DNA from: Adhaeribacter rhizoryzae
GTDB lineage: Bacteria > Bacteroidota > Bacteroidia > Cytophagales > Hymenobacteraceae
Direction of reading: 5' to 3'
DNA length: 64,000 nucleotides
NCBI RefSeq assembly: GCF_008629685.1
Contig: NZ_VWSF01000024.1
Coordinates: 1 to 64,000 of the forward strand
Each line of letters opens with the position of its first letter. Position 1 is the first letter of the stretch. Shown piece after piece: positions 22,401-61,980 of this stretch. Below the pieces are notes generated by a model. It searched no databases and was not told where the DNA came from. It worked only from the letters and a program-made list of their open reading frames with translations. The position numbers were made by a program, and so were the translations under genes.

Positions 22401-22613
22401 TTGGGCAATAAAAACGGGGAATATATTATTTATCAGGAAAAAGCCGGAAATATTCCGGTTGATCTAAAAACGGCTGGGGGTAAGTTCCGGGTGCGCTGGT
22501 TCGATCCGGCAACTGGACAACTTCAGAAAGAAGAAACTAGCAGCAACGGGAAACTAGCCGAAACAAAAAAACTGCCATCTGGTCCGGTGGTGGTGTGGAT
22601 TTCCCGGAGTTAA
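19443..22613 (+). CDS. two-domain secreted protein: beta-helix plus DUF6298-like TIM-barrel domain
   Basis: 1056 aa; TTG is chosen because the next in-frame Met is beyond the signal peptide (FLTCLLVSLLSLHFPALAQ), and an in-frame stop at 19425 limits extension. Residues ~90-500 have the pattern of pectate-lyase/GH28-like parallel beta-helices: RRIQAALDYVAGLP, GAVLLEKGTYEVAG, GVVLRGSG, VRQVIFEHFAGSAV. After a Pro/Lys linker, residues ~600-970 form a second domain resembling DUF6298, with GLWYERRRDDHERIRRMDGE, a WYWSRLKTFADLADQKGLL barrel strand and LQLISAEYTGP, where the Glu sits like a glycosidase acid/base. A C-terminal beta-sandwich closes the protein. Likely a pectin-active enzyme with two activities; neither is proved. 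Confidence 0.7.
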   Translation: MHILFKILPKSKRYYFLTCLLVSLLSLHFPALAQNSKPAKPASPVSLGKDGRLFYSPDAKGNRIPDFSYCGYAASEAPIPNVPIKLVVPLQKGDATRRIQAALDYVAGLPMDKSGFRGAVLLEKGTYEVAGSLHIKTSGVVLRGSGIGEDGTVLIAAGKDRQTFITLHGVNNKQLGTPIKIKDSYVPVNANQIRIENSQTFKVGDHVQIQRPSTAEWIKALGTDHFGGGITALGWKPGQRDLFWDRKIVAVNGETLTLDAPITTALDANYGGGTVTKMNWPGRISRVGVENLRLRSAYDKNNPKDEDHRWMAITLENIQDAWVRQVIFEHFAGSAVAVFESAKRVTVEDCKSLAPVSEIGGQRRYTFFTNGQQTLFQRNYAEQGYHDFSVGFCAAGPNAFVQCESVLPYNFSGAIDSWAAGVLFDIVNVDGHALSFKNRGQDGQGAGWSAANSVFWQCAAARIDNYSPPTAQNWAFGTWAQFSGDGYWEESNSHIKPRSLFYAQLADRLGKEVGERAQLLPMETDASSSPPVAVAMALTAEAVKPAPRLIDWIDGAPQRNPIPTQASKVKTVDQLKLKAPVAEKPAAPMHVENGWLVRGKEVLTGKRQDVPWWSGSSRIYALAKTKPHITRFVPGRTGHGLTDDLEEVTDNMKKQGQVALEHNYGLWYERRRDDHERIRRMDGEVWPPFYELPFARSGKETAWDGLSKYDLRKPNNWYWSRLKTFADLADQKGLLLVHQQYFQHNIIEAGAHYADFPWRPANNINETGFPEPVPYAGDKRIFLAEQFYDVNHPKRRELHRAYIQQCLNNFNGNTGVLQLISAEYTGPLHFVQFWLDTIREWEKETGKNALVGLSTTKDVQDAILTDQARAAIVDVIDIRYWHYREDGTAYAPAGGQNLAPRQHARLVKPGKSSFAQVYRAVCDYRKANPGKAVMYSASNYDHEGWAAFLAGGSLAEIPVVAHPGFLTAAAQMQPLDLPNHPAGQYALGNKNGEYIIYQEKAGNIPVDLKTAGGKFRVRWFDPATGQLQKEETSSNGKLAETKKLPSGPVVVWISRS

Positions 22614-22630
22614 GGCATACGCAATTATTT

Positions 22631-24052
22631 ATGTGGTTTAAGACTAAAAGAATTTTGTTTGTTTGTTTGATTTGGGTGGTAAACTTATTAGTTGCAGCCT
22701 GTGCCGCGCACAGGTTGCCTAATAAGTCTTCAATCCTACCGAAACTGCGCATTTCCGAAAACAACCGTTATTTCATGACCGAAAAAGGCGAGCCCTTTTT
22801 CTGGTTAGGCGACACGGGCTGGCTGCTACCTGCCAAACTGAACCGGGAAGAAGCGGAAAAATACCTCGAAAACCGCCGGCAAAAAGGTTTTAATGTAATT
22901 CAGATTAGCGTGCTGCACGGCATTGGTGCCGTAAATAGCTACGGCGACAGTGCTTTGATTGCCAGAAATCCCGCTAGGCCAAAAGTAACCGAAGGCAATA
23001 ATTTTGCCGACCCAAAGCAATATGATTATTGGGATCACCTGGACTATATCGTAGATAAAGCCGCCGAAAAGAACCTTTATCTGGGCCTGGTATTAATGTG
23101 GGGCAACAATGTAAAAAGTAAGCAGGTTACCCCGGACCGCGCGGCGCAATACGCTACTTTTCTGACGGAGCGGTATAAAGACCGGAACAATATTATCTGG
23201 TTAAATGGCGGCGATATCCGGGGCAGTGATTCGGTGCGGGTGTGGCAAAATATTGGAAAAGTCCTGCAAAAAACGGTGCCGGATCATTTGGTTACTTTCC
23301 ATCCGCGTGGCCGTACTTCTTCTACGGCTTGGTTTCACCAGGAGCCCTGGTTAGATTTTAACATGTTCCAATCCGGCCACCGCCGCTACGACCAGGACAC
23401 CTCAGCCACCGACCTGCAGTACGGCGAAGACAATTGGAAATATGTGCAGGTAGATTACCAAAAATCGCCTACCAAGCCAACTTTAGACGGCGAGCCTTCC
23501 TACGAGAAAATAGTACACGGCCTGCACGATTTTACCCAGCCTGTCTGGACCGACAGCGATGTGCGCCGCTATGGTTACTGGTCGGTGTTTGCCGGTGGTG
23601 CCGGGTATACCTACGGCCACAATGCGGTAATGCAAATGTTTAAACCCGGCGAAAAGAAGGGCGCTTTTGGTGTAAAAGATTATTGGTTTAACGGCATTGA
23701 TGATCCGGGGGCTGGCCAAATGGTGCACCTGAAAAAACTAATGCTCTCACGATCTTACTTCGAACGCGTACCGGATCAAACCTTGATTGCCGGTGAGACA
23801 GGCGAAAAATATAATTATGTATTAAGTACCCGCGGGCAGGATTATGCTTTTCTGTATACCTATACGGGCCGTTCTTTTAAAGTTAATATGGGAAAAATTA
23901 GCGGCAAGCAAGTTGCAGCTTCCTGGTACAGCCCGCGCGACGGCAAGTTTACCGCCATTGGCACTTTCCCGAACACGGGCGTGCAGGAGTTTAACCCTCC
24001 CGGCGAACCGCAGAACGGCAACGATTGGGTACTGGTTTTAGATAAAAAATAA
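22631..24052 (+). CDS. DUF4038/GH140-type glycoside hydrolase lipoprotein, apiosidase-like
   Basis: 473 aa from the ATG at 22631; an upstream ATG at 22595 would overlap the previous gene and spoil the lipoprotein signal, so it is rejected. The lipobox is LLVAAC (Cys24). The DUF4038 barrel is clear: PFFWLGDTGWLLPAKL, then LENRRQKGFNVIQI. Candidate catalytic residues are Asp195 in WLNGGDIRGS and Glu288 in LDGEPSYE, in the positions expected for the acid/base Asp and nucleophile Glu of GH140. The C-terminal ~90 residues match the 'putative collagen-binding' beta domain that usually follows DUF4038. GH140 releases D-apiose from rhamnogalacturonan II; other DUF4038 proteins have unknown substrates. 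The stop shares the A of the next gene's ATG (TAATG), implying translational coupling. Confidence 0.8.
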   Translation: MWFKTKRILFVCLIWVVNLLVAACAAHRLPNKSSILPKLRISENNRYFMTEKGEPFFWLGDTGWLLPAKLNREEAEKYLENRRQKGFNVIQISVLHGIGAVNSYGDSALIARNPARPKVTEGNNFADPKQYDYWDHLDYIVDKAAEKNLYLGLVLMWGNNVKSKQVTPDRAAQYATFLTERYKDRNNIIWLNGGDIRGSDSVRVWQNIGKVLQKTVPDHLVTFHPRGRTSSTAWFHQEPWLDFNMFQSGHRRYDQDTSATDLQYGEDNWKYVQVDYQKSPTKPTLDGEPSYEKIVHGLHDFTQPVWTDSDVRRYGYWSVFAGGAGYTYGHNAVMQMFKPGEKKGAFGVKDYWFNGIDDPGAGQMVHLKKLMLSRSYFERVPDQTLIAGETGEKYNYVLSTRGQDYAFLYTYTGRSFKVNMGKISGKQVAASWYSPRDGKFTAIGTFPNTGVQEFNPPGEPQNGNDWVLVLDKK

Positions 24053-25161: not shown

Positions 25162-27030
25162 ATGATGCATATTTTTAAAAAGATTTCGGTAGTTGCTTTT
25201 TTAGGATTGGGTTTAATAACTGTACAAGCCCAAGATACCGTGCGGTATACCGGCCAAACCTTATCTAACGTAGATTATCACCACGGGCAGCTCAGTCCGG
25301 CGGTTGGGGTGCATAATATTCAGGTATTTCGGGCCAACCGCGAGCATCCGGAACTGGCCGGTGGCCTGAACTGGACGTACAATCACGCGCCCATGCTGGC
25401 TTACTGGAATAATACGTTTTACCTGGAGTTTTTGAGTAACCCGGTAGGCGAGCACGTGCCACCCGGACAAACCTTATTGCTGACTTCCAAAGATGGTTAT
25501 AGCTGGTCTAAACCCACGGTAATATTTCCGCCTTACCGCATTCCTGATGGCTGGAAAAAAGAAGGCTATCCCGGCGTTGCCAAAGACCTGGATGCGGTGA
25601 TGCACCAGCGTATGGGCTTTTTTGTATCGAAGAAAAACCGCTTGCTGGCCCTGGCTTACTACGGCATTGCCATGGATGCTAAAGACGACCCAAACGACGG
25701 GAAAGGCATTGGCCGGGTAGTTCGCGAAATATTACCCAACGGCAAATATGGACCCATTTATTTTATCCGCTACAACAGCACCTGGGACCAGAAAAAATCA
25801 AGCTATCCGTTTTACACCACCAGCAAAGACAAAGGCTTTGTAGCCGCGTGCAACGAATTATTGGCCAATCCGCTCATGATGCAGCAGTGGGTAGAAGAAG
25901 CCGACCGCAACGATCCGCTGGTTCCGTTTAAAAGAGAAATAAAAGCCTTTAATTATTACCATTTGCCGGATGGCCGGGTAGTAGGTTTGTGGAAACACGC
26001 CTTAACCTCCATCAGCAAAGACGGTGGTAAATCCTGGCAATATAATCCCATCCGGGCACCGCATTTTGTAAATAGCAATGCTAAAATCTGGGGGCAAAAA
26101 ACATCTGATGGCCGGTACGCTACCGTTTACAATCCTTCGGAATTTCGCTGGCCTTTAGCCATTTCTACCAGCGCCAACGGTCTGGATTATACTAATTTAT
26201 TATTGGTAAACGGCGAAATTACCCGGATGCGGTACGGTGGCAATTATAAATCGTATGGTCCGCAATACGTGCGCGGCATTGTAGAAGGTAACGGCACGCC
26301 GCCGGATGGCAACATGTGGGTAACCTACAGCATGAACAAAGAAGATATGTGGGTGTCGTCGATTCCGGTGCCGGTAAAAGAAAAAGCCGACGGCCCCGCC
26401 AACGAAGTATTTAACTTAATGCCGAACGGAAAAGAGTTAAAAGAATGGAATATTTACAGCGCCTTGTGGGCGCCGGTGCAGGTAGAAAAAGCAGCGGATG
26501 GCACCAAAGCCCTGGCCCTGAAAGACTGGGACCCGTTTGAATACGCCAAAGCCGAACGCGTGATTCCGGCTGCTAAAAAAGTAACCGCTGAATTCTCCAT
26601 TACCCCGGCTCAGAACGACAAAGGCCAACTAAATATTGAGTTTCAGGATGGCAAAGGCAATGCCGCAGTCCGGATGATTTTTGATGCAGACGGCAGCCTG
26701 AAAACCAAAGCCGGTTACCGCAATTCAAATCTTATTCAATACGAAGCAGGCAAACAATACGATATAAAGGTAGACTTAAACGTAGATACGCGCTCGTACG
26801 TGGTAACGGTAAACGGCAAAACCATTGGCGCCCGTATCTTTTTTGCCCCGGTTCCTTCCATCGAGCGGGTCGTTTTTCGTACCGGCGAGGTACGCCGTTT
26901 CCCGGATGTCGACACCCCCACCGACCAGAATTACGATTTACCTAAAGCCGGCGAAAAAGACCAACTCGCTGCTTTTTACATCAAATCTTTAAAAACCAGT
27001 GGCGCCCCTCTGGAAACTACTTCCCGTTAG
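25162..27030 (+). CDS. secreted sialidase-fold beta-propeller protein with C-terminal jelly-roll domain
   Basis: 622 aa, with a signal peptide ending near LITVQAQ. Residues ~25-410 look like a six-bladed propeller of the kind often labelled exo-alpha-sialidase in Bacteroidota: LNWTYNHAPMLAYWNNTFYL, LTSKDGYSWSKP (Asp-box-like), ISKDGGKSWQY (Asp box) and GGNYKSYGPQYVRG. Residues ~415-615 form a laminin-G/concanavalin-type domain (KVTAEFSITPAQNDKGQLNI; VVTVNGKTIGAR). The GH33 arginine triad is not obvious, so true sialidase activity is doubtful. Position in a pectin PUL suggests a lyase or hydrolase for a pectin side chain. The gene has its own AT-rich upstream region. Confidence 0.65.
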   Translation: MMHIFKKISVVAFLGLGLITVQAQDTVRYTGQTLSNVDYHHGQLSPAVGVHNIQVFRANREHPELAGGLNWTYNHAPMLAYWNNTFYLEFLSNPVGEHVPPGQTLLLTSKDGYSWSKPTVIFPPYRIPDGWKKEGYPGVAKDLDAVMHQRMGFFVSKKNRLLALAYYGIAMDAKDDPNDGKGIGRVVREILPNGKYGPIYFIRYNSTWDQKKSSYPFYTTSKDKGFVAACNELLANPLMMQQWVEEADRNDPLVPFKREIKAFNYYHLPDGRVVGLWKHALTSISKDGGKSWQYNPIRAPHFVNSNAKIWGQKTSDGRYATVYNPSEFRWPLAISTSANGLDYTNLLLVNGEITRMRYGGNYKSYGPQYVRGIVEGNGTPPDGNMWVTYSMNKEDMWVSSIPVPVKEKADGPANEVFNLMPNGKELKEWNIYSALWAPVQVEKAADGTKALALKDWDPFEYAKAERVIPAAKKVTAEFSITPAQNDKGQLNIEFQDGKGNAAVRMIFDADGSLKTKAGYRNSNLIQYEAGKQYDIKVDLNVDTRSYVVTVNGKTIGARIFFAPVPSIERVVFRTGEVRRFPDVDTPTDQNYDLPKAGEKDQLAAFYIKSLKTSGAPLETTSR

Positions 27031-27098: not shown

Positions 27099-28346
27099 AT
27101 GAATAATAAAATATATTGGAGCCGCAGGTGGTTCGCTTCTTTTTTACTTGCCGGGCTATTGGTAACAACCAGCAGTTTTAATCCAAAAGGTTCAGCCGAG
27201 ATCCTTTCGCCAAATATTGCAGTTCTAGTTGAAGAAGGGGAGAATATTCCGGTTAATCTGAAATGGTCGGAGCGGATGGCGCTTTCGACGGTTAAAAGAA
27301 ACGCCTGGCTGCAGGATGTAAACAAGAATCCAGGCTGGGGCTACACGCAGGGCTTAATTGTTTATTCTTTTGAGCAAATCTGGAAGAAAAAACAGGATAA
27401 AAAATATTTGGATTATGTAAAAAACTACGGCACCCAAATGATTCAGCCGGACGGTACCATTAAAACTTACAAACCCGAAACCTATAATATTGATAATATC
27501 AACGCCGGTAAAAGTCTTTTTACCCTATACAAAGTTACCGGCGACGAGAAATATAAAAAAGCCCTACAGCAATTGCGGGCCCAAATGAAAACGCACCCGC
27601 GTACTTCCGAAGGCGGCTTCTTTCACAAGCAAAAATATCCCTCGCAACTGTGGCTCGACGGCGCTTACATGGCCAGCCCTTTCCTGGCGCAATACGCCCA
27701 AGAGTTTAAAAAACCCCAACTGTTTGATGATGTAGCGCAGCAACTAATATTAATGGAGAAGCACCTGCGCGATGCTAAAACGGGTTTGTTGTACCACGGC
27801 TGGGACGAAAAGCGGGTGCAACCTTGGGCCGATAAAGAAACCGGACGCTCCCGCAATTTCTGGGGCCGGGCCATTGGCTGGTACGCCATGGCTTTGGTAG
27901 ATGTACTGGATTATATGCCCAAATCGCATCCGAAAAGAAAAGAAATATTGGCTATCTGGCAGCGGCTGGTACCGGCTCTGCAAAAATACCAGGATAAAGA
28001 AACCGGTTTGTGGTACCAGGTGGTAGACCAAGGTAACCGCGCGGGTAATTACCTGGAGGCTTCCGGCTCATGTATGTTTGTGTACGCCATTGCCAAAAGT
28101 GTAAACAAAGGTTACTTGGATGCCAAGTTTAAGCCAATAGCCGATAAAGGTTATAACGGCATTATTAAGAAATTGATCGAAGTAAAACCCGATGGCGAAA
28201 TAAATCTGTTGCAGGTTTGCGAAGTAGCCGGCCTGAGCGACGACCGGGATGGTTCTTTTGAATATTACGTGAAAGAACCCATTCGCATCAACGATCCTAA
28301 AGGCGTTGGGCCTTTTATTTTGGCCAGCCTCGAACTAAATAAATAA
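27099..28346 (+). CDS. GH105 unsaturated rhamnogalacturonyl/galacturonyl hydrolase
   Basis: 415 aa. An N-terminal hydrophobic segment (WFASFLLAGLLVTTSS) acts as signal peptide. The (alpha/alpha)6 barrel of YteR/YesR-type GH105 is recognisable: WGYTQGLIVYSF, YNIDNINAGKSL with Asp132, and the catalytic LWLDGAYM with Asp187; NFWGRAIGWYAMALVDVL is highly characteristic. It hydrates the 4,5-unsaturated uronic acid left by pectate lyases, so it completes the work of the two PL1 enzymes encoded upstream. It lies 22 bp before the next gene, consistent with an operon running 25162-32708. Confidence 0.93.
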   Translation: MNNKIYWSRRWFASFLLAGLLVTTSSFNPKGSAEILSPNIAVLVEEGENIPVNLKWSERMALSTVKRNAWLQDVNKNPGWGYTQGLIVYSFEQIWKKKQDKKYLDYVKNYGTQMIQPDGTIKTYKPETYNIDNINAGKSLFTLYKVTGDEKYKKALQQLRAQMKTHPRTSEGGFFHKQKYPSQLWLDGAYMASPFLAQYAQEFKKPQLFDDVAQQLILMEKHLRDAKTGLLYHGWDEKRVQPWADKETGRSRNFWGRAIGWYAMALVDVLDYMPKSHPKRKEILAIWQRLVPALQKYQDKETGLWYQVVDQGNRAGNYLEASGSCMFVYAIAKSVNKGYLDAKFKPIADKGYNGIIKKLIEVKPDGEINLLQVCEVAGLSDDRDGSFEYYVKEPIRINDPKGVGPFILASLELNK

Positions 28347-29519: not shown

Positions 29520-30488
29520 ATGAAAAATAAAGCCAAATCTGATGCGGTAAAAGAGAGTAACCAGCATAATATTAATCGGCGGCAGTTTCTGGGAAATGCT
29601 GTTTTGGCCTTGGCCGGCGGTTTGTTGTTGCCCCGCAGCTTGGCCTTAGCTGCACCATCTTCTAAATATTTCTTTCCGGCAGCCACTAACCAGCGGTACA
29701 AAATTGCGGTAATTGATTTAATGATTCTGAAGCGGCAGAAATTGAGCGCTTTGCAATTAACGAAAGATATTGGCGCCGATGGCTTAGAATTGGACATGGG
29801 TGGCCTGGGCAACCGCGAAACTTTCGAAAACCAATTAGCCAATCCGGAGGTGCGGCAGCAATTTATAAATAAAGCCAAAGAACTTAATCTGGAATTCTGC
29901 TCGCTGGCCATGACCGGTTTTTACGCCCAGTCTTTCGCCGAACGGCCCACCTACCAGCGCATGGTAGGCGATTGCATCGAAACCATGAAACAGCTAGGCG
30001 TGAAAGTTGCTTTTTTGCCGCTCGGAATAAAAGGCGATTTGGTGCAGCACCCGGAATTGCGGCCGGCCATTGTGGAGCGGCTGAAAGTAGTGGGCAAAAT
30101 GGCCGAAGCGGCGGGTGTTATTATTGGCATTGAAACGGCGCTCGATGCAACCGGTGAAAAGAAATTACTAAAAGATATTGGCTCCCCAGCGGTTCAGATT
30201 TATTTCAACTTTTCTAACCCCTTAAAAGCGGGCCGCGACTTGCACCAAGAATTAAAAATATTGGGCAAAAAGCGCATCTGTCAGATTCATTGCACCGACG
30301 AAGATGGTGTTTGGCTGCAACATAATACCCGCCTCGATATGCATAAAGTAAAGCAAACGCTGGATAAAATGGGTTGGAGCGGCTGGCTGGTAGTAGAACG
30401 CTCGCGCGACGCCAAACAACCCCGCAGTGTAAAAGAAAATTTTAGTGCCAATACCGCCTACCTCAAATCAGTTTTCCAGACCGGTTAA
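29520..30488 (+). CDS. Tat-exported sugar phosphate isomerase/epimerase-like TIM barrel
   Basis: 322 aa. The N-terminus has NRRQFLGNAVLALAGGLLLP, a twin-arginine signal. The rest is a xylose-isomerase/AP-endonuclease-2-type barrel: KDIGADGLELDMGGLG, EFCSLAMTGFYAQSF, VIIGIETALDATG with its metal-binding Glu, ICQIHCTDEDGVWLQ with His and Asp, and WLVVERSRDAKQP with Glu. These metal ligands suggest an active isomerase, epimerase or dehydratase folded before export. The gene starts 9 bp after the preceding stop and is co-transcribed with GH78, so it probably acts on a released sugar in the periplasm. Confidence 0.82.
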   Translation: MKNKAKSDAVKESNQHNINRRQFLGNAVLALAGGLLLPRSLALAAPSSKYFFPAATNQRYKIAVIDLMILKRQKLSALQLTKDIGADGLELDMGGLGNRETFENQLANPEVRQQFINKAKELNLEFCSLAMTGFYAQSFAERPTYQRMVGDCIETMKQLGVKVAFLPLGIKGDLVQHPELRPAIVERLKVVGKMAEAAGVIIGIETALDATGEKKLLKDIGSPAVQIYFNFSNPLKAGRDLHQELKILGKKRICQIHCTDEDGVWLQHNTRLDMHKVKQTLDKMGWSGWLVVERSRDAKQPRSVKENFSANTAYLKSVFQTG

Positions 30489-30521: not shown

Positions 30522-32708
30522 ATGAACATCCAAACGCAATTAGTAAAAACCATAACCGGTTTTTGCCTGCTCTTTATTTTAATAGTTATTAACCCTGCTC
30601 AGGCCCAACAAGCCACCTGGATTTGGTACCCCGGCGATTACGAAATATGGCTAGCCAACGACATGCAGAACCGGCGCACCGAACGCGGCGCTTTCTTTCC
30701 GCCATTCTGGCGCATGGACAGCCACTACGTGCTCATGGATTTTCACAAAGAGTTTAACCTGGCGAAAGCTGAAGAAGTAGAACTTTATGCCGAAGGTCAG
30801 TACAATGTAAAACTAGATAGCAAAATGCTGCCCGGTGCTCCAACCAAGGTTACCATACCGGCCGGTAAACACAAGCTAAATATTAAAGTACACGCGCAGG
30901 ATAAGGTGCCGGCCATTTTTGTAAAAGGCCCAACCATTGTATCGGATTCCACGTGGCTGGTTACTTTCGAGGACAAAGAATGGATCGATGAAACCGGCAA
31001 AGTGTCGGGACAATCCGGTACTGCCTGGCTCAAAGCCGGATCCTGGAATTTTAATGATCCTAAAAATCTGCCTTCCAAATTTAAATTACCTACCGAGCCC
31101 TGGAAAGCCGCTAAAGTTACGCGGCAGCCAGGTTCCATCCTCGTTGATTTCGGCAAAGAGACCTTTGGCTTTGTAAAACTGCACGGCCTGAAAGGCAAAG
31201 GCAAAGTATCGCTGTACTACGGTGAATCGCAGGAAGAAGCGCTGGCTACCGAAACCGGCGAAACCCTGGACCACCTGCAGGTAGACCGGCCGCAAGCCGT
31301 GGATATGGTGCTACCGGGTTCCCGGGCATTCCGGTACGTCAATATTCAGTTCGATAATTCCGTTAGCATTGGCGATGTCTCGATGCTGTACGAATATTTG
31401 CCGGTTGCTGACCGCGGTAAATTCCGGAGTTCTGATCCGGAGTTAAATAAAATATGGGATGTAGCGGCCTACACGCTGCACCTGAATACGCGCGAGTTTT
31501 TCATCGATGGTATTAAGCGCGACCGCTGGATTTGGTCCGGCGATGCGTACCAAAGTTACCTGATGAATTATTATTTGCTCTTTGATTCGCCGTCGGTAAC
31601 CCGTACGTTGTTGGCCCAGCGGGGCAAAGACCCGGTTACGAGCCACATCAACACCATCATGGATTACACTTTTTACTGGTTCTTGGGCATCAACGATTAT
31701 TACCAGTACACCGGCGATAAAAGTTTTATTAAACAGTTTTACCCCCGCATGCAGAGCCTGATGGAGTTTGCCTTGAGTCGGCGGAATAAAAATGGCATGG
31801 TAGAAGGCCTGGCGGGTGATTGGGTTTTTATTGATTGGGCTGATGGACTGAGTAAACAAGGCGAAGTCAGTTTTGAGCAGTTGCTGCTCTGTCGCAGCTT
31901 AGAAACCATGGCTCTTTGCGCCAGTATTGCCCAGGACCAGGAAGGTGCCCGGCGCTACAACGAGTTAGCCACCAAACTAAAAGCCAAATTATTTACCACT
32001 TACTGGGACCAGAACAAACACGCCTTGGTACACAGCCGGGTTAATGGCCAGCCCACTGATAATGTTACCCGCTACGCTAATATGTTTGCCATCTTCTTCG
32101 ACTACCTCAACGCCGGCCAGAAGCAGGAGGTAAAGCAACATGTGCTGCTGAACGATAAAGTGCAGAAAATTACCACGCCCTACATGCGCTTTTACGAACT
32201 GGAAGCTTTGTGTGCCATGGGCGAGCAGAACTACGTGTTAAAGGAAATGAAAGATTATTGGGGCGGGATGCTGAAACTAGGTGCTACGTCTTTCTGGGAA
32301 AAATATGATCCTAACGAAAAAGGAGCGGAGCATTATGCGATGTACGGTCGTCCGTTTGGCCGGAGTCTGTGCCACGCCTGGGGAGCCAGCCCGATTTATT
32401 TATTAGGCAAATATTACCTGGGTGTAAAACCTACTTCACCGGCTTATGCTACTTATTTGGTAGAGCCCGTTCTGGGTGGATTGGAGTGGATGGAAGGCAG
32501 CGTGCCTACGCCCAAAGGCGATATAAATATTTATTGCAGCCAAAAGCAGATTAAAGTAAAATCCGGCGAAGGTACCGGCACGCTCCGTTTCCAAAGCAAA
32601 AGCAAGCCCACATCTAAAGGCACCAGAATAACCGCCAAAGGCAACAATATTTTCGAAATGACTATTGATAAGGGTAAAGAATACGTGGTAGCTTACAATG
32701 CTAAATAA
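30522..32708 (+). CDS. GH78-family alpha-L-rhamnosidase
   Basis: 728 aa. A signal peptide ends near INPAQAQQ. An N-terminal beta-sandwich (to ~300) includes PGSILVDFGKETFGFVKL and DNSVSIGDVSMLYEY, as in bacterial rhamnosidases. The (alpha/alpha)6 catalytic domain begins around residue 310 (PELNKIWDVAAYTLHLNTREFF), with the diagnostic FIDGIKRDRWIWSGDAYQS segment that in GH78 carries the acid and substrate contacts, and HAWGASPIYLLGKYYLG near the end. A C-terminal beta domain follows. It removes L-rhamnose from rhamnogalacturonan chains or side chains. Confidence 0.88.
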   Translation: MNIQTQLVKTITGFCLLFILIVINPAQAQQATWIWYPGDYEIWLANDMQNRRTERGAFFPPFWRMDSHYVLMDFHKEFNLAKAEEVELYAEGQYNVKLDSKMLPGAPTKVTIPAGKHKLNIKVHAQDKVPAIFVKGPTIVSDSTWLVTFEDKEWIDETGKVSGQSGTAWLKAGSWNFNDPKNLPSKFKLPTEPWKAAKVTRQPGSILVDFGKETFGFVKLHGLKGKGKVSLYYGESQEEALATETGETLDHLQVDRPQAVDMVLPGSRAFRYVNIQFDNSVSIGDVSMLYEYLPVADRGKFRSSDPELNKIWDVAAYTLHLNTREFFIDGIKRDRWIWSGDAYQSYLMNYYLLFDSPSVTRTLLAQRGKDPVTSHINTIMDYTFYWFLGINDYYQYTGDKSFIKQFYPRMQSLMEFALSRRNKNGMVEGLAGDWVFIDWADGLSKQGEVSFEQLLLCRSLETMALCASIAQDQEGARRYNELATKLKAKLFTTYWDQNKHALVHSRVNGQPTDNVTRYANMFAIFFDYLNAGQKQEVKQHVLLNDKVQKITTPYMRFYELEALCAMGEQNYVLKEMKDYWGGMLKLGATSFWEKYDPNEKGAEHYAMYGRPFGRSLCHAWGASPIYLLGKYYLGVKPTSPAYATYLVEPVLGGLEWMEGSVPTPKGDINIYCSQKQIKVKSGEGTGTLRFQSKSKPTSKGTRITAKGNNIFEMTIDKGKEYVVAYNAK

Positions 32709-34598: not shown

Positions 34599-35846
34599 AT
34601 GGAAAGAATTAAGGCTACTTACTTTATTGAAACGCCTTTGCCCGTAGAGAAAGCCGCTGCCGTTTTAGCCGGGGAGCAATCTTCCGGTACTTTTGTGGCG
34701 GTACCGGGCGAAACGGAGGAATTAAAACAGCGGTTTGCTGCCCGGGTTGAAGCTATAAGGCCGGTAGAAACGGTTTCGGAACCCAGTATACCGGGTTTAA
34801 ACCTAAATGGCGGCGCCTATCACCGGGCCCATGTAGAAGTTTCCTGGTCGATTGAAAATTTTGGGTATAACTTGGCGGCCATGATTTCGACACTGCAAGG
34901 CAACCTGTATGAGCTTACCCAATTTACCGGTTTAAAGCTGATGGATCTGGAGGTGCCGGATTCGTTTGCCACCCGGTTCGCAGGTCCCCGGTTTGGCATT
35001 GCGGGTTGCCGCCAACTTACCCAGGTTACCGATCGCCCGCTAATCGGCACCATTATTAAACCCAGCATTGGCCTGAGCCCCGCCCAAACCGCAGACCTGA
35101 TAAAAACTTTAGTCCAAGCCGGCATTGATTTTATCAAGGACGATGAACTGCTGGTTTCTTCGGGTAATTCGCCTTTTGAGGAACGGGTTGATGCGGTAAT
35201 GCGGGTAATAAACGCGCACGCCGATATAACCGGCAAAAAGGTAATGTATGCCTTTAACATCAGCGATGAAATAGATGAGATGTTGAAGCGCTACGAATAT
35301 ATTCTGGCAGCTGGCGGTACTAGCGCCATGATTAGCCTGAATAGTGTGGGATTATCGGGGGTAAAGAAAATCTGCGACCAGGGGCAATTGGCGATTCACG
35401 GACACCGCAATGGCTGGGGCATGCTGAACCGTCACCCTTTGCTGGGCATTGAGTTTCCGGCTTATCAGAAAATATGGCGGCTGGCCGGCGTAGACCAGAT
35501 ACACGTAAATGGCATCCAAAATAAATTCTGGGAGTCCGACGATTCGGTAGTGCGGTCGATTGAAGCATGTTTAAAACCCATGCTCGGCGGCTATTCTATT
35601 TTGCCGGTAGTATCTTCCGGCCAGTGGGGCGGACAGGCGCCCGAAACGTATCGTCGTACCCAAACTACCGATTTGCTTTATATGGCCGGTGGCGGCATTA
35701 TGGCCCACCCGGACGGACCAGCTGGCGGCGTAGTGGCGCTGCAGCAAGCCTGGGAAGCCGCTGTGGACGGGTTAACGGTAGCTGAGGCTGCGCAAAAATA
35801 TCCCGAGTTTGGCAATTCCGTTAAAAAATTTGGCTCACCCGCATGA
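34599..35846 (+). CDS. RuBisCO-like protein (form IV), probable acid-sugar phosphate decarboxylase/transcarboxylase
   Basis: 415 aa, shorter than form I RuBisCO and typical of RuBisCO-like proteins. Active-site equivalents present: Lys154 (IIKPSIGLS; RuBisCO Lys175), carbamate lysine Lys180 with Asp182 and Glu183 (IKDDE), His269-Arg270 (HGHRNGWG), Lys309 in the loop-6 region (NGIQNKFWES), Ser340-Gly341 and Gly365-Gly366 with HPDG following. The second lysine of KPK (RuBisCO Lys177) is Ser156, so it is not a CO2-fixing enzyme. RuBisCO-like proteins beside DUF1537 kinases act on 3-oxo-isoapionate 4-phosphate or related acid sugars (OiaX/OiaT type); that activity is inferred here. The end overlaps the kinase start by ATGA. 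Confidence 0.88.
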   Translation: MERIKATYFIETPLPVEKAAAVLAGEQSSGTFVAVPGETEELKQRFAARVEAIRPVETVSEPSIPGLNLNGGAYHRAHVEVSWSIENFGYNLAAMISTLQGNLYELTQFTGLKLMDLEVPDSFATRFAGPRFGIAGCRQLTQVTDRPLIGTIIKPSIGLSPAQTADLIKTLVQAGIDFIKDDELLVSSGNSPFEERVDAVMRVINAHADITGKKVMYAFNISDEIDEMLKRYEYILAAGGTSAMISLNSVGLSGVKKICDQGQLAIHGHRNGWGMLNRHPLLGIEFPAYQKIWRLAGVDQIHVNGIQNKFWESDDSVVRSIEACLKPMLGGYSILPVVSSGQWGGQAPETYRRTQTTDLLYMAGGGIMAHPDGPAGGVVALQQAWEAAVDGLTVAEAAQKYPEFGNSVKKFGSPA

Positions 35847-37270
35847 GTAAGCAGCCGAACAACCTGATGCTGGCCTATTACGGCGACGATTTCACCGGGT
35901 CTACGGATGCCCTGGAGTTTCTCAGCCGGGCCGGCGCCAGAACGGTGTTGTTTATGAATACACCCACGCCGGAACATTTAAGTCGCTATTCAGGGCTTCA
36001 GGCCATAGGCGTGGCGGGCAAAACCCGCGCGATGGCTCCGGCCGAAATGGAACAGGAACTGCGACCGGCTTTTACGGCTTTGCAAGCCCTGGGCATTCCG
36101 CACGTGCATTACAAGGTTTGCTCAACGTTTGATTCTTCGCCTAATGTCGGGAGCATCGGGAAAGCCATTGAGGTCGGAGCCGAAATATTCCAGGCGGCTT
36201 TCGTGCCCTTACTGGTAGCCGCTCCGGCGCTGGGTCGGCATTGTGTATTTGGTAACTTATTCGCCCGGATGGGTATCGGCAGCCAAGGCAATATTTACCG
36301 CCTGGATCGCCATCCTTCCATGAGCCGGCACCCGGTAACGCCCGCCGACGAAAGCGATCTGCGCCTGCACCTGGCCCGGCAAACAACGAAACAGATTGGC
36401 TTATTTGATATTTTGCAAGTAGGCCGTCCGGCTGATGAAGCGCTGAAAATATTAAAAGAAATAATTAACCAGGGAGCCGAGGTCGTTTTATTCGATGCCC
36501 TATATTCAGAACAATTAGCAGCCATTGGGTCTTTGCTCGATATTTATGCCAATTCGGAAAAACCGTTGTTCTCGGTAGGTTCATCGGGCATCGAAATGGC
36601 TCTGGGCCAGTTCTGGACAGAACAGAATCGCTTACCACCCGCTCCTGATTGGCCTAACCCCGGAAAAGCCAAACCGTTATTGGTTGCTTCCGGCAGTTGC
36701 TCGCCGGTAACTGCTGGTCAGATTTCTTGGGCATTAGCGCAAGGTTTTGCCGAAATTGCCCTGGATACGGTCACGCTAGCCCATTCTGATCGGGAGAATA
36801 CCGCTGGATTATTGCAAAAATATTTAACGGAAGCTTTGGAATATTTAGACGAAGGGCGTAGCGTAATTATTCATACAAGCCGCGGGGCAGACGACGAAAG
36901 AATAGACAAAACGGCTGCTGTTTTACACCAGCAAGGTCTTACGGCTCAGCAGGTTCAAAGCCGGACCGCGCACCTTTACGGCACCGCTTTAGGCAACCTG
37001 GTGCGGGCTATTCTGGAAAAAGCATCGGTTCAAAGGGTTGTAATTGCCGGTGGCGACACCTCCAGTTATGCCGCCCGGGCCTTAGGAATAGAAGCCGTAG
37101 AAATGATTGCGCCGCTCTCGCCTGGCGCGCCGCTTTGCCGGGCTTATGCTCCCGGTTCTCCTATTGATGGTCGAGAAGTAAACTTTAAAGGCGGCCAAGT
37201 GGGATCGGAAGATTATTTTGGTTTGGCCGCGGCCGGAAAAATTTATATAAAAATTATAGAGACTTTTTAA
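35843..37270 (+). CDS. DUF1537 (four-carbon acid sugar) kinase
   Basis: 475 aa. The N-terminal domain opens with YYGDDFTGSTDALEFL, the acid-sugar-binding signature. The C-terminal nucleotide-binding domain has IHTSRGADDERI, VIAGGDTSSYAARALG and a GGQVGSEDYFG end. DUF1537 proteins phosphorylate 3-oxo-tetronates or 3-oxo-isoapionate. The 4-bp overlap with the RuBisCO-like gene indicates translational coupling, and the expected order is kinase then RuBisCO-like enzyme acting on the phosphorylated oxo-acid. A second DUF1537 gene, cut by the window edge, lies at 63770-64000; the C-terminal sequences of the two are clearly different, so they belong to different subgroups. Confidence 0.9.
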   Translation: MSKQPNNLMLAYYGDDFTGSTDALEFLSRAGARTVLFMNTPTPEHLSRYSGLQAIGVAGKTRAMAPAEMEQELRPAFTALQALGIPHVHYKVCSTFDSSPNVGSIGKAIEVGAEIFQAAFVPLLVAAPALGRHCVFGNLFARMGIGSQGNIYRLDRHPSMSRHPVTPADESDLRLHLARQTTKQIGLFDILQVGRPADEALKILKEIINQGAEVVLFDALYSEQLAAIGSLLDIYANSEKPLFSVGSSGIEMALGQFWTEQNRLPPAPDWPNPGKAKPLLVASGSCSPVTAGQISWALAQGFAEIALDTVTLAHSDRENTAGLLQKYLTEALEYLDEGRSVIIHTSRGADDERIDKTAAVLHQQGLTAQQVQSRTAHLYGTALGNLVRAILEKASVQRVVIAGGDTSSYAARALGIEAVEMIAPLSPGAPLCRAYAPGSPIDGREVNFKGGQVGSEDYFGLAAAGKIYIKIIETF

Positions 37271-37319
37271 TTTGAATAGAAATTCAGATTAACTCTTTTT
37301 ATGACTGTTGAGCCCATTT

Positions 37320-37378
37320 CTGTCATTCAGGAGGAACCTATGTAGCAGGTAGCCAAATAGGTTCCTCCTGAATGACAG
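37320..37378. repeat. perfect 22-bp palindrome, family A copy 1
   Basis: Arms 37320-37341 and 37357-37378 are perfectly complementary (beginning CTGTCATTCAGGAGGAACC) with a 15-base loop. Related copies at 40875-40949 and 57942-58040 carry additional outer stems. It lies in the 202-bp gap between the DUF1537 kinase and racemase-family genes. Confidence 0.85.
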
Positions 37379-37472
37379 GATTGAGACTAATAACCAATAG
37401 TATAAACTAAATTTTAAGTAGTTTAAATTTAATTACCGCTTACCCCAATTATTCACCACCAAATATTACCTC

Positions 37473-38135
37473 ATGAAACAGAAAACTTTAGGACTAATAC
37501 ACACCTCTGCCACTTTGGTGCCGATGTTTCAGCAACTTTGCCAGCAGCAGTTACCGGGCGTGCAGGTTTTTAATATTGTAGATGATAGCCTGATAAAAGA
37601 TGTCATTAAACGGGGCGAACTGACCGCCCTGACGGCCCGCCGGGTAGTTGATTATGTAGGCTCAGCCGAAGCAGCCGGTGCTGATTACATTATGGTTACC
37701 TGTTCTTCTATCGGTGCCGCCGTGGAGGCCGCCGCTGCGCTTACCAGCGTTCCGGTGCTGCGGGTAGACCAGCCCATGGCTGACCTGGCGGTACAAACCG
37801 GTTCCCGGATTGGCGTAATTGCTACGTTGCCAACCACACTAGCCCCCACCAGCGATTTGGTTAAACGCCGCGCGGCCAAAGCAGGTAAGGAAATCGAGTT
37901 AACCTCCCGCCTTTGCGAAGGTGCTTTTGAAGCGCTAATGAGCGGCGACACCGCTAAACATGATACCATGGTGGCAGATGCCCTCCGGGAACTGCAGCAG
38001 GAGGTAGATGTTATTTTATTGGCCCAGGCTTCTATGGCCCGGGTGGTTGATAATTTAGCGGAAAAGGATAAAGGGGTGCCCATTCTGGCAAGTCCACCGG
38101 AAGCCGTTAAACACCTGGCTACGGTCTTAACCTAA
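37473..38135 (+). CDS. Asp/Glu racemase-family protein, second catalytic Cys replaced
   Basis: 220 aa, usual length for the Asp/Glu/hydantoin racemase superfamily. The first-half cysteine is Cys77 (YIMVTCSSIG). In the second half the expected Cys motif is LLAQASM (~182-188), with no cysteine, so a two-base racemase mechanism is unlikely; single-Cys relatives include decarboxylases and isomerases. Between a DUF1537 kinase gene and a carboxylate-type transporter gene, it may isomerise or decarboxylate the acid sugar handled by the RuBisCO-like pathway. TTCACCACC lies 12-21 bases before the ATG. Cytoplasmic. Confidence 0.75.
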   Translation: MKQKTLGLIHTSATLVPMFQQLCQQQLPGVQVFNIVDDSLIKDVIKRGELTALTARRVVDYVGSAEAAGADYIMVTCSSIGAAVEAAAALTSVPVLRVDQPMADLAVQTGSRIGVIATLPTTLAPTSDLVKRRAAKAGKEIELTSRLCEGAFEALMSGDTAKHDTMVADALRELQQEVDVILLAQASMARVVDNLAEKDKGVPILASPPEAVKHLATVLT

Positions 38136-38143
38136 GCGGGCTT

Positions 38144-39469
38144 ATGGAAAAAATCCGGAAAGTTTGTTTGGGCGTAAGCGGGCTTTGCCTGCTGCTGTTG
38201 TTAGCTGGTCTTGTAATGGGGCAAGCCCAAATCTGGCAGCCAGCGGCAGTGGTATCATCGGTTTGTTTGGCTATTGGCCTGGGCGCGGTACCCGCCTTAA
38301 AAGGTTTTCAATACACCGCCTGGATTATTGCGGCCGTAGTGGCCGGTATGATTTATCCGGCGGCCTTTCTCAAATGGGGCGACTTTGACCTGCGGAATAA
38401 ATGGCTGATTTTAATAATAATCCAGTTGGTAATGTTTGGCATGGGGCTGCACATGGGCATCAAAGATTTTGTGGGTATAAGAAAATCCGGCAAAGGCGTG
38501 CTAATTGGTTTGGTGTGCCACTTTTCCATAATGCCACTAATGGGTTTGCTGTTAACGAAGGTGTTTTATTTTGAACCCGAAATCGCGGCTGGTATTATTT
38601 TAATTGGTTCTTGTTCGAGCGGATTGGCCTCTAACGTAATGGTTTTTATCTCCCGCGCCAACATGGTTTTGTCCGTTACGGTTACGGCCATGGCTACTCT
38701 GGTGGCTCCTTTCATTACGCCGCTCCTGATGAAACTACTGGCCGGTACTTTAATCGAGATTAGTTTTGTAGATATGATGGCCGAAATCATTAAAATCGTG
38801 ATTGTACCCATTGGTGCGGCCCTTTTACACGATTACCTTAAAACTGCTTCCGTTCCTGGCCAGCGGAAGGTAACCATCATAACGGCAGCCTGTTCTCTTT
38901 GGCTAGTGGCACTTGCTGTAGGCGGCTGGGCCTATTTAGAAGTGAATACTACGCCGGGCATCTTAACCCTGGTTGAATTAATTAGCTTTATGGCCGGCGC
39001 TGTAATAGTTGGGGTTTTGTATCATCTGTTAACGCTACAGTTTCCTAAACTCGATAGCATCATGCCGTATTTCTCGATGTTTGGCATTGTGTATTTTACT
39101 ATGGTTACGACTGCGGCAGGCCGCGAGAATTTATTACAAGTAGGTTTCTTACTTTTTCTGGCCTCGGTTATTCATAATGGCGCCGGGTATTTTTTCGGCT
39201 ATTGGCTCAGCCGCTTCTTTGGTCTCGACAAAAATTCTGCGCGAACGGTGGCTTTTGAAGTTGGGCTGCAAAACGGGGGCATGGCTTCCGGGTTAGCCGG
39301 CACAATGGGGAAATTAGGAACGGTTGGTTTAGCAGCGGCAGTTTTTAGTCCCTGGATGAATATTTCAGGTTCTATATTGGCTAATTACTGGCGGCGGAAA
39401 CCGGTAGTGGATTCCAGGGAAATTGTAGCAGAGCAGTTGGAACCCGCACCGCAAGTGCCTTCGGTTTAA
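38144..39469 (+). CDS. bile acid:sodium symporter (BASS/SBF) family transporter
   Basis: 441 aa. After two N-terminal hydrophobic helices (~8-60) that precede the usual core, the BASS fold is evident: FGMGLHMGIKDFVGI, IILIGSCSSGLASNVMVFISRAN with the Na+/substrate crossover, and FEVGLQNGGMASGLA with the second crossover motif. Family members import organic anions with Na+. It starts 8 bp after the racemase-family stop, so it belongs to the RuBisCO-like operon and is a good candidate for uptake of the acid sugar. Confidence 0.85.
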   Translation: MEKIRKVCLGVSGLCLLLLLAGLVMGQAQIWQPAAVVSSVCLAIGLGAVPALKGFQYTAWIIAAVVAGMIYPAAFLKWGDFDLRNKWLILIIIQLVMFGMGLHMGIKDFVGIRKSGKGVLIGLVCHFSIMPLMGLLLTKVFYFEPEIAAGIILIGSCSSGLASNVMVFISRANMVLSVTVTAMATLVAPFITPLLMKLLAGTLIEISFVDMMAEIIKIVIVPIGAALLHDYLKTASVPGQRKVTIITAACSLWLVALAVGGWAYLEVNTTPGILTLVELISFMAGAVIVGVLYHLLTLQFPKLDSIMPYFSMFGIVYFTMVTTAAGRENLLQVGFLLFLASVIHNGAGYFFGYWLSRFFGLDKNSARTVAFEVGLQNGGMASGLAGTMGKLGTVGLAAAVFSPWMNISGSILANYWRRKPVVDSREIVAEQLEPAPQVPSV

Positions 39470-48589: not shown

Positions 48590-48628
48590 AAATTATCCCT
48601 CGCATAAATACAGGAGCAAACAGATAGT

Positions 48629-50035: not shown

Positions 50036-50069
50036 TTTACGACTACCTAGCTTTTAAATATTTTAGTGC

Positions 50070-50894: not shown

Positions 50895-51017
50895 AAAACA
50901 AGTTGTGGCGGGTTAAACAGCTTTCCATAGTAAATATTTAGATTCAACAACCATCTAATTATGGCTGGCATTTAGCATGGTCAACAGCCAAAGTAAAACT
51001 TTTATAACGATTAAAAA

Positions 51018-51992: not shown

Positions 51993-52013
51993 TCCTTTCC
52001 AAATATTAGCCAT

Positions 52014-53423: not shown

Positions 53424-53443
53424 TTTGTTCTAAAGCGGAAAAT

Positions 53444-54391: not shown

Positions 54392-54397
54392 AATAAT

Positions 54398-55036: not shown

Positions 55037-55181
55037 TATTGCTGTTCCTGCTATAAAGGCACAAGCCATTTGGCTCATAATAATTGGTTTAAAAATAAGA
55101 AGAGAAATAATAATCTAATGAATAGCTAGCATACCGAACCAACAGCATCCACCACTACCACTTAAAGTCACCACAAATAAA

Positions 55182-56687: not shown

Positions 56688-56700
56688 TTAAGTCACCACT

Positions 56701-57741: not shown

Positions 57742-57843
57742 TTTAGGCTTAATTTCTCTGAAATATTCTAAGGTCTGTAATTTTTCCGGCAGTACTATTT
57801 ACTAAAATATAACCTGTTTATACTTTTAAAATTTAGTCCCAGG

Positions 57844-57925
57844 CAGCCCTGGCCGTGTGTTTTCACCGGCCAGCAATAAGGCTGAAGCTCAAGAATAGGC
57901 GGTGAAAACACCACCCATGGCGGCT
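57844..57925. repeat. structured intergenic repeat, family B copy 2
   Basis: Stem CTGGCCG (57849-57855) / CGGCCAG (57867-57873) around a TGTGTTTTCAC loop, then GAAGCTC and GGCGGTGAAAACACCACC, which can pair with the loop. Compared with the 32778 copy, the stem is different in sequence yet still complementary, while loop and 3' block are conserved. Confidence 0.7.
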
Positions 57926-57941
57926 AATAATAGAAGTTTAA

Positions 57942-58040: not shown

Positions 58041-58112
58041 TCAGCCTCAAACAAGGTAAGCAAGCAAAAATTGCGTAATAGCAGTTATTAAATCGGTTTA
58101 AAACCAAATACA

Positions 58113-59937: not shown

Positions 59938-61980
59938 TTACCGGCTCAAAGGCATCCAAACCGACATTTCGGAATGACCGCGGTTACCCCAGGTGTAGTA
60001 GGGTACGAGTTTTATCTGGGTGGTCTTGTTTTCTTTAGAAACTTCTTTGTACAATTGGTTTGTCCAGTTGCCGGTTTGCACCAGTTTGGCCGTGCCTTCC
60101 AAACTTATTACGTCGCTGTTCTGGATTTTGGTTAATTTGGGGATGAGCTGAATATCGGCCGGAATGCTGACATTGAAAATATCCTGGCTACCCATATCTA
60201 CCGATTCCACGCAATAAACGACGGGTCCGCGTTTTACGGCTACCTGGTTGCGGGTTTCTTCAACCAGCGGGTTTGCTTCAAATAATTTTACTTCCATGGG
60301 CAGTGTTAATTCTATTCTATCACCTTTTTTCCATTTGCCATTAAGTTCGGCGTATTCGCCGGCAGTTAATTTGGCTTGGGTATAAGGTTTGCCGTTCACT
60401 AATATTTTGGCGCCATTGGCCCAGCCCGGTATCCGCATAAACAGTGAGAATGCTTTATTCGGCACCTGATCCAGGTTTACTTTAATATTACCGTCCCAGG
60501 GGTAATTGGTTTCCTGGGTCAGTTTTACCACCGAGCCGTCTTTAAGTTTGGTGTCGAGGGTATTACCGCCGTACAGGTTAAAATAAATCCCTTTATCCGA
60601 TGTGCTATAGGCGTAATTATTCAACTCCGCAATGGTGCGCACCACGTTGGGTGGGCAGCAATTAGATTTTTTAATATAGCCCACCCGATCTTTAGACCAC
60701 CGCTGGCTAAAAGGTAGCTCATCGGAAAAACTTAGTGGGTTGGTGTATAAAAATTTGGTGCCATCGAGGCTAATACCCGACAAAACGCTGTTGTATAAGG
60801 CCAATTCCATTACATCCGTGTATTTGGCCTCGCCTGTTAGTTGCAGCATGCGCCAGTTCCAAAGCACATTACCAATATTGGCGCAGGTTTCGTTGTGGGC
60901 GGTTAAGTTGGGTAGCTGGTAATCGCGGCCGTAGGCCTGGTGCACTTTCTGGACGGTATCGGGTTTGTAAGCGGTACCATCCGGCGATACGCCATCGTAC
61001 AGCGAGCCCGTAGCGCCGGTAACGTACATTTTCCGGTTCACCACGTCGTTCCACATCAAATCCAGCGTCGACAACAAGGTTTTGTCCCCGGTTTCGGCGT
61101 AAACATCGGCTACGCCGGCGAATAAATAATTGGCCCGTACGGCGTGGCCCGAAACTTTTTTCATGTCCCGGAACGGGATACGATCCTGGTTGTCGTCGGT
61201 GCCAATATCGCCGGCATGTCCGCGGATATCAATTAGTTTTTTTACCAGTTCTAAATATTTGGGGTCGCGGGTGGTGCGATACATTTCTACTACGCCCATG
61301 TAGTGCGAGGGGCAAATGGCATTCCGGGCATATTCCGGCGAAGCATTTTTGTAAAAGTTGTACAGGTAATCGGTGGCTTTTTTGGCTACGTCCAGGAAAG
61401 AGGTTTTGCCGGTGGCCCGGTAATGCACACAGGCGGCCGTCATGAGGTGCCCAAAGTTATAGGCTTCAAAAAGCAACTTATCCTGCTGTACCTTGGCTTC
61501 AGCCGATTGCGATCTTTCCTTAATAATAACCGGCGTATGCAGGTAACCATCGGCCCGCTGGGCTTTGGCCATTACCGCAATGCTCTGGTCCATGAGCTGG
61601 TTCAGTTTTTCGTCCTTCGTAACGGCGTAGGCGGCCGCTACCGATTCAAAAACTTTATAAAAATCACCGTCGTGAAAGGAGGGGCCGGTGTGGGCCCCCT
61701 TTTCCAAACCGGCGGCTATCTCAAAATTCCGGAAGGCGTGGCTGATTTCGGGGTCTTTGTAAATCCGCACAATATTAGGCACCATGGTTTCTTTGCACAC
61801 CTGAAACCGCTCGGCCCAGAAACCTTTGGTCCAGGCCACATCATCCATATCCACGTTGCGTAACTGCGCATAAGGACTTTTGGAATTATTTAGCAGGCCT
61901 TTGTTCTGGGCCAGCATGTTTTTCTGGGGCAATAGGGCTCCCGAAATAGCCAAAAGCAGCAGGCGGAATGATTTATTCAT
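59938..61980 (-). CDS. GH127-family beta-L-arabinofuranosidase-like hydrolase
   Basis: 680 aa with a signal peptide (LLLLAISGALLPQKNMLAQ). The zinc and catalytic residues of GH127 are all visible: Glu364 and Cys366 in NETCANIG, and Cys441-Cys442 in KSNCCPPNVVRT, with the nucleophile cysteine in the CC pair. The (alpha/alpha)6 barrel and C-terminal beta domains are complete. Known GH127 activities are beta-L-arabinofuranosidase and, in rhamnogalacturonan II degradation, release of aceric acid. The leader has CCACCACTT about 20 bases before the ATG, and the AT motif of 62051-62078 lies further upstream. It belongs functionally with the pectin enzymes. Confidence 0.92.
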   Translation of the reverse strand: MNKSFRLLLLAISGALLPQKNMLAQNKGLLNNSKSPYAQLRNVDMDDVAWTKGFWAERFQVCKETMVPNIVRIYKDPEISHAFRNFEIAAGLEKGAHTGPSFHDGDFYKVFESVAAAYAVTKDEKLNQLMDQSIAVMAKAQRADGYLHTPVIIKERSQSAEAKVQQDKLLFEAYNFGHLMTAACVHYRATGKTSFLDVAKKATDYLYNFYKNASPEYARNAICPSHYMGVVEMYRTTRDPKYLELVKKLIDIRGHAGDIGTDDNQDRIPFRDMKKVSGHAVRANYLFAGVADVYAETGDKTLLSTLDLMWNDVVNRKMYVTGATGSLYDGVSPDGTAYKPDTVQKVHQAYGRDYQLPNLTAHNETCANIGNVLWNWRMLQLTGEAKYTDVMELALYNSVLSGISLDGTKFLYTNPLSFSDELPFSQRWSKDRVGYIKKSNCCPPNVVRTIAELNNYAYSTSDKGIYFNLYGGNTLDTKLKDGSVVKLTQETNYPWDGNIKVNLDQVPNKAFSLFMRIPGWANGAKILVNGKPYTQAKLTAGEYAELNGKWKKGDRIELTLPMEVKLFEANPLVEETRNQVAVKRGPVVYCVESVDMGSQDIFNVSIPADIQLIPKLTKIQNSDVISLEGTAKLVQTGNWTNQLYKEVSKENKTTQIKLVPYYTWGNRGHSEMSVWMPLSR

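Follow-up and report, generated by a model that had tools for sequence, protein, structure and literature searches.

Introduction

The closest described counterpart of the genes considered here is the OiaK/OiaX branch of D-apionate catabolism, which is said to have been set out in Carter et al. 2018. Our subject is a module of four genes in a stretch of 64,000 nucleotides from Adhaeribacter rhizoryzae, called the window below, which encodes a RuBisCO-like protein (RLP), a DUF1537-type kinase, a protein of the Asp/Glu-racemase fold and a carrier of the BASS family. PMC6302742 describes RLPs of the OiaX/OiaT group as acting on 3-oxo-isoapionate 4-phosphate, either by decarboxylation (in Agrobacterium radiobacter K84) or by transcarboxylation/hydrolysis (in Xanthobacter autotrophicus). 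The module resembles OiaK/OiaX in that a DUF1537-type kinase would be followed by an RLP with the catalytic residues of RuBisCO, and in that a branched 3-oxo acid sugar is proposed as the substrate. It differs in that its RLP is 45-50% identical to OiaX proteins and lies under the cut-off of their family model, in that ApnL and ApnO were not found in 26 genomes of its clade, and in having a racemase homologue, a BASS carrier and a GH127 glycosidase instead.

L-Aceric acid (3-C-carboxy-5-deoxy-L-xylose) is a rare acid sugar of rhamnogalacturonan II, a highly complex pectin of the plant cell wall, and the fate of the rarest sugars of this polymer after their release is poorly known. For aceric acid we know of no catabolic pathway once the sugar has been freed. 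The GH127 aceric acid hydrolase of Bacteroides thetaiotaomicron, given as BT1003 in a figure legend of PMC10850190, covers the release step only, unlike the module. The literature searched comprised open-access papers, and in it no report linking aceric acid with an RLP was found; the passages that combine RLPs with rhamnogalacturonan concern apiose (PMC6302742).

We propose that the four genes probably constitute the intracellular half of a dedicated L-aceric acid pathway. That aceric acid is the substrate is well supported by the gene context, and we hold this part of the proposal to be highly probable. An earlier note on this DNA had spoken of a possibly undescribed pathway variant, which it probably is, with aceric acid as the likely substrate. 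Such a candidate would give form IV RLPs a new role, and the question is directly testable with five purified proteins.

Layout and conservation of the module

The RLP gene (34599..35846, 415 aa) is followed on the same + strand by the genes for the kinase (35843..37270), the racemase homologue (37473..38135) and the BASS carrier (38144..39469). The RLP and kinase genes overlap by 4 bp, the gap between kinase and racemase is 202 bp, and that between racemase and carrier is 8 bp. The four genes, their order, the overlap and the 8-bp gap are as the earlier note had described them, and the family names are backed by both Pfam and NCBIfam. The 6.5-Mb assembly that holds the window contains a single RuBisCO-family match.

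Relatives of the RLP were taken from a scan of public genomes, of which the best 80 of 554 were kept. These are 66-84% identical to it and belong mainly to Bacteroidota, with some Verrucomicrobia; the closest named ones among them are from Hymenobacteraceae (Bacteroidota), namely Rufibacter (81%) and Pontibacter (83%). At 62 of the 80 loci the order RLP-kinase-racemase-BASS is contiguous and on one strand. Five have another layout (four from Dyadobacter, with the racemase and BASS genes on the opposite strand, and one with a larger gap), and at 13 the four-gene set is incomplete as called. Scored by tblastn, the kinase is present at 76 loci, the racemase homologue at 75 and the carrier at 74, and the loci that lack a partner gene are mostly on short or ending contigs. 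Because the gene order is conserved, the set is more than a chance arrangement, and the idea that the racemase homologue and the carrier are parts of the module is borne out.

In a sample of 395 genomes of the phylum, the RLP clade occurs in eight, at 491-517 bits to the OiaX model, while all other matches are at 225 bits or less. The racemase profile, applied with an E threshold of 1e-15, is found in exactly the same eight genomes. The two samples are not independent, because the contigs of the loci L074, L089 and L094 have the same lengths as those of the phylum genomes G080, G286 and G021.

The RuBisCO-like protein

With 222.8 bits to PF00016 (threshold 30.1), the protein belongs to the RuBisCO superfamily and has its catalytic residues. 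Against the OiaX model NF042437 it scores 516.7 bits, below the cut-off of 700, which the OiaX of Shinella exceeds (779.8 bits) and none of the 395 phylum genomes does. A maximum-likelihood tree was built from 28 sequences, 14 of the more than 80 clade members and 14 others, and rooted at its midpoint, the outgroup branches being long. The clade members group together (support 100/98), the three annotated OiaX proteins do so as well (100/100), and the two groups join each other (100/96), with haloarchaeal, Bradyrhizobium, Paracoccus and other RLPs outside. Judged from these sequences, the clade is placed as sister to the OiaX decarboxylases and not inside OiaX. The comparison with OiaX and OiaT proposed in the earlier note was thus carried out for OiaX, with which the protein groups, while a proven OiaT sequence was absent from the tree. 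The nearest NCBIfam models are OiaX for the RLP and OiaK for the kinase, and the earlier reading of the four genes as a set for acid sugars, akin to OiaK/OiaX, is upheld.

An enolase of the MtnW type (methionine salvage, DK-MTP-1-P) was also considered and rejected, as the protein reaches 170.6 bits with one MtnW model (cut-off 409) and 130.9 bits with the other (cut-off 513.6). Membership in that group had been named beforehand as an outcome that would speak against an acid-sugar role, and the protein lies far below the MtnW cut-offs and with OiaX in the tree. Many genomes of another family (G087, G063, G169; families f16 and f18) carry RLPs of about 432-439 aa that score roughly 200-225 bits against the OiaX model, and these form a separate clade in the tree.

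The active site was compared in an alignment of 40 sequences, namely the protein of the window and 39 chosen out of the 69 RLPs that were called at full length. The carbamate Lys180, Asp182, Glu183, His269, Arg270 and the loop-6 Lys309, all pointed out previously, are present and invariant. The replacement of RuBisCO Lys177 by Ser156 was likewise described correctly, but it is not distinctive: this position holds Ala, Ala and Ser in the three annotated OiaX proteins and Asn in 3nwr, and since these also lack Lys177 we reject Ser156 as the mark of a new active site. Lys154, which we take to be RuBisCO Lys175, is kept. At forty positions nine clade members all have one residue and the three OiaX proteins all have another; examples are Asn102, Gly268 and His302, the last being Gln in OiaX. 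At many of these positions, and at each of the three just named, the outer RLPs agree with the clade, so that the change there was on the OiaX side. The predicted model of the RLP has a mean pLDDT of 87.2.

Kinase, carrier and racemase homologue

The kinase scores 462.4 bits against the OiaK model NF042436, whose cut-off is 700 bits. This cut-off does not separate the kinases, because the Shinella kinase, next to an OiaX that passes its own model, reaches only 441.6 bits. The carrier is assigned to BASS by PF01758 (103.8 bits over 24.3), and it lies below the cut-offs of the more specific models PanS (204.8 of 400 bits) and TIGR00841 (186 of 326.3).

The racemase homologue contains a PF01177 domain (90.4 bits over 31). 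Its predicted model (pLDDT 95.6) matches 1jfl over the whole Asp/Glu-racemase fold, with Z 21.4 and rmsd 2.5 over 209 residues. Like other members of the Asp/Glu/hydantoin racemase superfamily it thus has the complete fold and keeps the first catalytic Cys; unlike the racemases it has an invariant Gln for the second one, and its identity to 1jfl is 15%. In an alignment of 67 proteins (66 of the 75 loci plus the window, from called genes filtered to 205-240 aa), Cys77 and Gln185, the latter at the second catalytic Cys site, are invariant in all 67. The description as a single-Cys protein therefore holds for the catalytic pair; a further cysteine, Cys148, is conserved in 63 of the 67. A homologue on a Rhizobium plasmid (L157, 8983-9684), 46.8% identical and with the same Cys and Gln, lies beside FAD-dependent oxidoreductases.

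The GH127 partner and the rhamnogalacturonan II setting

On the - strand of the window, at 59938..61980, there is a gene for a GH127 enzyme that passes the NCBIfam model for aceric acid hydrolases, NF049879, with 1185.8 bits over a cut-off of 950. Among solved structures, 5mqo, which we take to be BT1003, matches it best (892.9 bits; the next has 383.6). Neither this partner nor the rhamnogalacturonan II setting had been included in the earlier note.

Counting neighbours within 10 kb, GH127 is the commonest family outside the core of the module, at 39 of the 80 loci, the next family being at 16. Among the gene families of the window itself, rhamnosidase-like genes are near the RLP at 15 loci, BT_1020-like genes at seven and apiosidase-like genes at three. 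For 72 loci the sequence upstream of the RLP is long enough to judge, and in 24 of them GH127 is the gene immediately upstream, on the same strand and at most 150 bp away. GH127 relatives of at least 47% identity are found in all 80 RLP genomes, three of them as fragments at contig ends. In 41 genomes no GH127 neighbour was called; 40 of them were searched whole, and 37 of these have GH127 at 664 bits or more. In three (L085, L086, L119) a C-terminal piece of GH127 is directly upstream of the RLP at the contig end, and the 41st (L094) lies in G021, which carries GH127.

In the phylum sample, counted at 750 bits or more (the next score gap reaches down to 616), GH127 occurs in 21 of the 395 genomes. 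All eight RLP genomes are included, with both genes on the same contig and within about 55 kb; the hypergeometric probability of this co-occurrence is 1.5e-11 when relatedness is ignored. Among 32 genomes or records tested with NF049879, 15 pass with complete genes, namely 14 genomes of Bacteroidota or Balneolota and a Rufibacter plasmid, and three hold fragments. This plasmid, which carries the RLP of 81% identity, has a passing GH127 copy with 1189.5 bits; a symporter, a DHDPS-family and a FucI-type gene lie beside it.

A Croceibacterium plasmid (Alphaproteobacteria; L156, L159) was considered as an independent copy of the set. It has a GH127-clan gene, an RLP (54%) and a kinase (38%) adjacent to each other, and elsewhere a racemase homologue (56%) with an MFS carrier. 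Its GH127-clan protein, however, is only distantly related, with 27% identity over 234 residues and 87.4 bits against the 950 of the model.

The surroundings of the module also point to rhamnogalacturonan II. Upstream of the RLP and on the same strand are SusC/SusD genes and genes for an apiosidase-like glycosidase (22595..24052; PF13204, best solved relatives 3kzs/5msy at 472 bits), a BT_1020-like protein (25162..27030; PF24067), a GH88/105-type unsaturated glycosyl hydrolase (27099..28346) and a rhamnosidase-like protein (30522..32708), of which the apiosidase-like and BT_1020-like genes are signs of a rhamnogalacturonan II locus. In the phylum genome G150, GH127, a GH2 beta-galactosidase, the RLP, the kinase, the racemase homologue and the BASS carrier run on one strand, and relatives of this GH2 gene are near the RLP in G033 and at 11 of the 80 loci. 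For Bacteroides, PMC11739564 gives galactosyl-beta-1,2-aceric acid as the compound on which the GH2 enzyme BT_0993 acts. The GH127 partner and the setting together argue for aceric acid as the substrate rather than 3-oxo-isoapionate. The apiosidase-like gene was considered as the key partner and rejected, being near the RLP at just three loci.

Proposed pathway

In the pathway that we propose, the GH127 enzyme, assigned by the curated family model, would free the sugar, and the BASS carrier would then import the free acid sugar. Next, the racemase-fold protein with its one catalytic Cys would shift the carbonyl from C1 to C2, to yield the 2-ketose of aceric acid, HOOC-C(OH)(CHOH-CH3)-C(=O)-CH2OH. 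The OiaK-like kinase would, by homology, phosphorylate the CH2OH next to the ketone, and the RLP would decarboxylate the resulting beta-keto acid as OiaX does, giving 5-deoxypentulose 1-phosphate, as the tree and the active site suggest. An aldolase of the rhamnulose-1-phosphate type, encoded elsewhere in the genome, would finally cleave this compound into dihydroxyacetone phosphate and acetaldehyde; a rhamnulose-1-phosphate aldolase/dehydrogenase is found at G000:C9 (983.6 bits over 567.75).

The chemistry fits the enzymes at hand. 3-Oxo-isoapionate is HOOC-C(OH)(CH2OH)-C(=O)-CH2OH. The aceric ketose has one methyl group more, at a distance from the reacting centre, so that a kinase resembling OiaK and a decarboxylase resembling OiaX would be expected. 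Since aceric acid already has its carboxylate, no oxidation is needed, in line with a module that has no dehydrogenase. That the RLP is a decarboxylase we consider more likely than not. The least certain step is the isomerisation, for which the racemase homologue is proposed because both the step and the enzyme are the only ones left over. A single base on one face, as the one Cys would provide, would suit a cis-enediol isomerase, and the assignment may be correct, with the balance slightly against it. The proposal in its full form, a first catabolic pathway for L-aceric acid in which an RLP decarboxylates a branched 5-deoxy acid-sugar phosphate and a racemase-fold protein acts as a one-Cys aldose-ketose isomerase, is accordingly put forward as tentative. 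The last step has been discussed elsewhere: PMC6302742 treats the aldol cleavage of 5-deoxypentulose 1-phosphate in 5-deoxyadenosine salvage as a hypothesis. The proposed products, acetaldehyde and dihydroxyacetone phosphate, are the same, whereas here the intermediate would come from the decarboxylation of an acid sugar.

A number of observations weigh against this pathway. In the window itself, GH127 is 24 kb from the RLP and on the opposite strand, and 41 of the 80 loci have no complete GH127 gene called within 10 kb. The 14 complete GH127s tested from outside Bacteroidota score 844-917 bits, under the 950 of the model, and may differ in substrate. The hydrolase occurs without the RLP in 13 of the 21 sampled genomes that have it, which is expected for partial users and is no positive evidence; the module would separate such possible cutters-only from possible full users of aceric acid. 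Within 21 kb, the locus L068 has no kinase, racemase or BASS gene and L072 no kinase, and the aldolase is not a recurring neighbour of the RLP. We know of no aldose isomerase with a racemase fold, nor of aldose-ketose isomerase activity anywhere in the Asp/Glu-racemase superfamily. Relatives of the racemase homologue on rhizobial plasmids (46-49%) keep Cys77 and Gln185 and adjoin FAD oxidoreductases and not an RLP, so the Cys/Gln type of the fold is not tied to aceric acid. The enzyme steps, finally, are predicted from sequence.

Alternative explanations

We have also considered that the substrate is the same and the chemistry another, with the RLP carrying out an OiaT-type transcarboxylation/hydrolysis, or with the racemase homologue catalysing a different step (epimerisation or decarboxylation) and the isomerase located elsewhere. 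RLPs of this group are described with either activity (PMC6302742), and the tree contained no proven OiaT sequence; it did place the clade as sister to annotated OiaX decarboxylases. A candidate isomerase is the TIM-barrel isomerase-like protein at 29520..30488 (PF01261; its N-terminus, judged by eye, resembles a signal sequence), homologues of which are within about 20 kb of the RLP in six of the seven other sampled genomes, but within 10 kb the gene is present at seven of the 80 loci, against 75 for the racemase homologue. The superfamily of the latter does include decarboxylases (3eis, 3ixm). Arylmalonate decarboxylase keeps the other Cys, for which reason a role like that of this enzyme is less likely; it was not among the 50 structure-comparison matches listed for the racemase homologue, which excludes nothing. 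Overall, we regard a different chemistry of this kind as rather unlikely.

The substrate itself might instead be 3-oxo-isoapionate, formed from D-apiose via D-apionate, with the kinase as OiaK and the RLP as OiaX or OiaT. The nearest NCBIfam models and the apiosidase-like gene in the same + strand run would agree with this. In Shinella, the OiaX gene is accompanied by ApnL (818.2 bits) and by a dehydrogenase weakly resembling ketol-acid reductoisomerase, which we take to be ApnO. ApnL was found in none of the 26 clade genomes searched, while two of two controls matched, one of them under the cut-off; the ApnO-like dehydrogenase was likewise found in none of the 26, save for one stray match of 19.8 bits, with both controls positive, one being the source of the query itself. 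The kinase substrate therefore probably does not come from the known apionate route, and the plain D-apionate pathway was rejected, as the enzymes that make the OiaX substrate were not found in any of these 26 genomes. The module, moreover, has no dehydrogenase, the apiosidase-like gene is near the RLP at three loci against 39 for GH127, and a separate cluster of the window (47825-59651) looks like an apiose isomerase route. We thus give the D-apionate explanation very little weight. Hardly more can be said for another acid sugar of rhamnogalacturonan II, such as Dha, Kdo or an aldonic acid, which we consider quite improbable. It would agree with the BT_1020-like genes near the RLP at seven loci, and with a family of acid-sugar dehydratases of the enolase superfamily that is near the RLP at seven of the 80 loci and immediately precedes it in some Verrucomicrobia. 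GH127, however, is a much commoner partner and is found in all 80 genomes, and aldolases can split Dha and Kdo with no need for a kinase and an RLP.

Other genes of the window

The cluster at 47825-59651 comprises a DeoR regulator, a FucI-like isomerase, a split transketolase, a ribose-type ABC transporter with DUF2291 and an FGGY kinase, and it looks like the D-apiose isomerase route, which is reported to have been described in Carter et al. 2018. A solved relative of the FucI-like protein was looked for and none was found. Among the 80 loci, homologues near the RLP number five for FucI, six for transketolase and eight for FGGY.

A second cluster, at 521-9183, contains Gfo/Idh/MocA, SSF symporter, DHDPS-family aldolase, DUF3748, AraC regulator and DUF3826 genes, and may serve a different acid sugar, for example Dha or Kdo. 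The BASS gene is followed directly, at 39663-40691 and on the opposite strand, by a gene for a class 1 fructose-bisphosphatase (468.6 bits over 368). The acid-sugar dehydratase-like gene of the enolase superfamily, whose family is near the RLP at seven of the 80 loci, is directly upstream of it in L120, L129 and L131.

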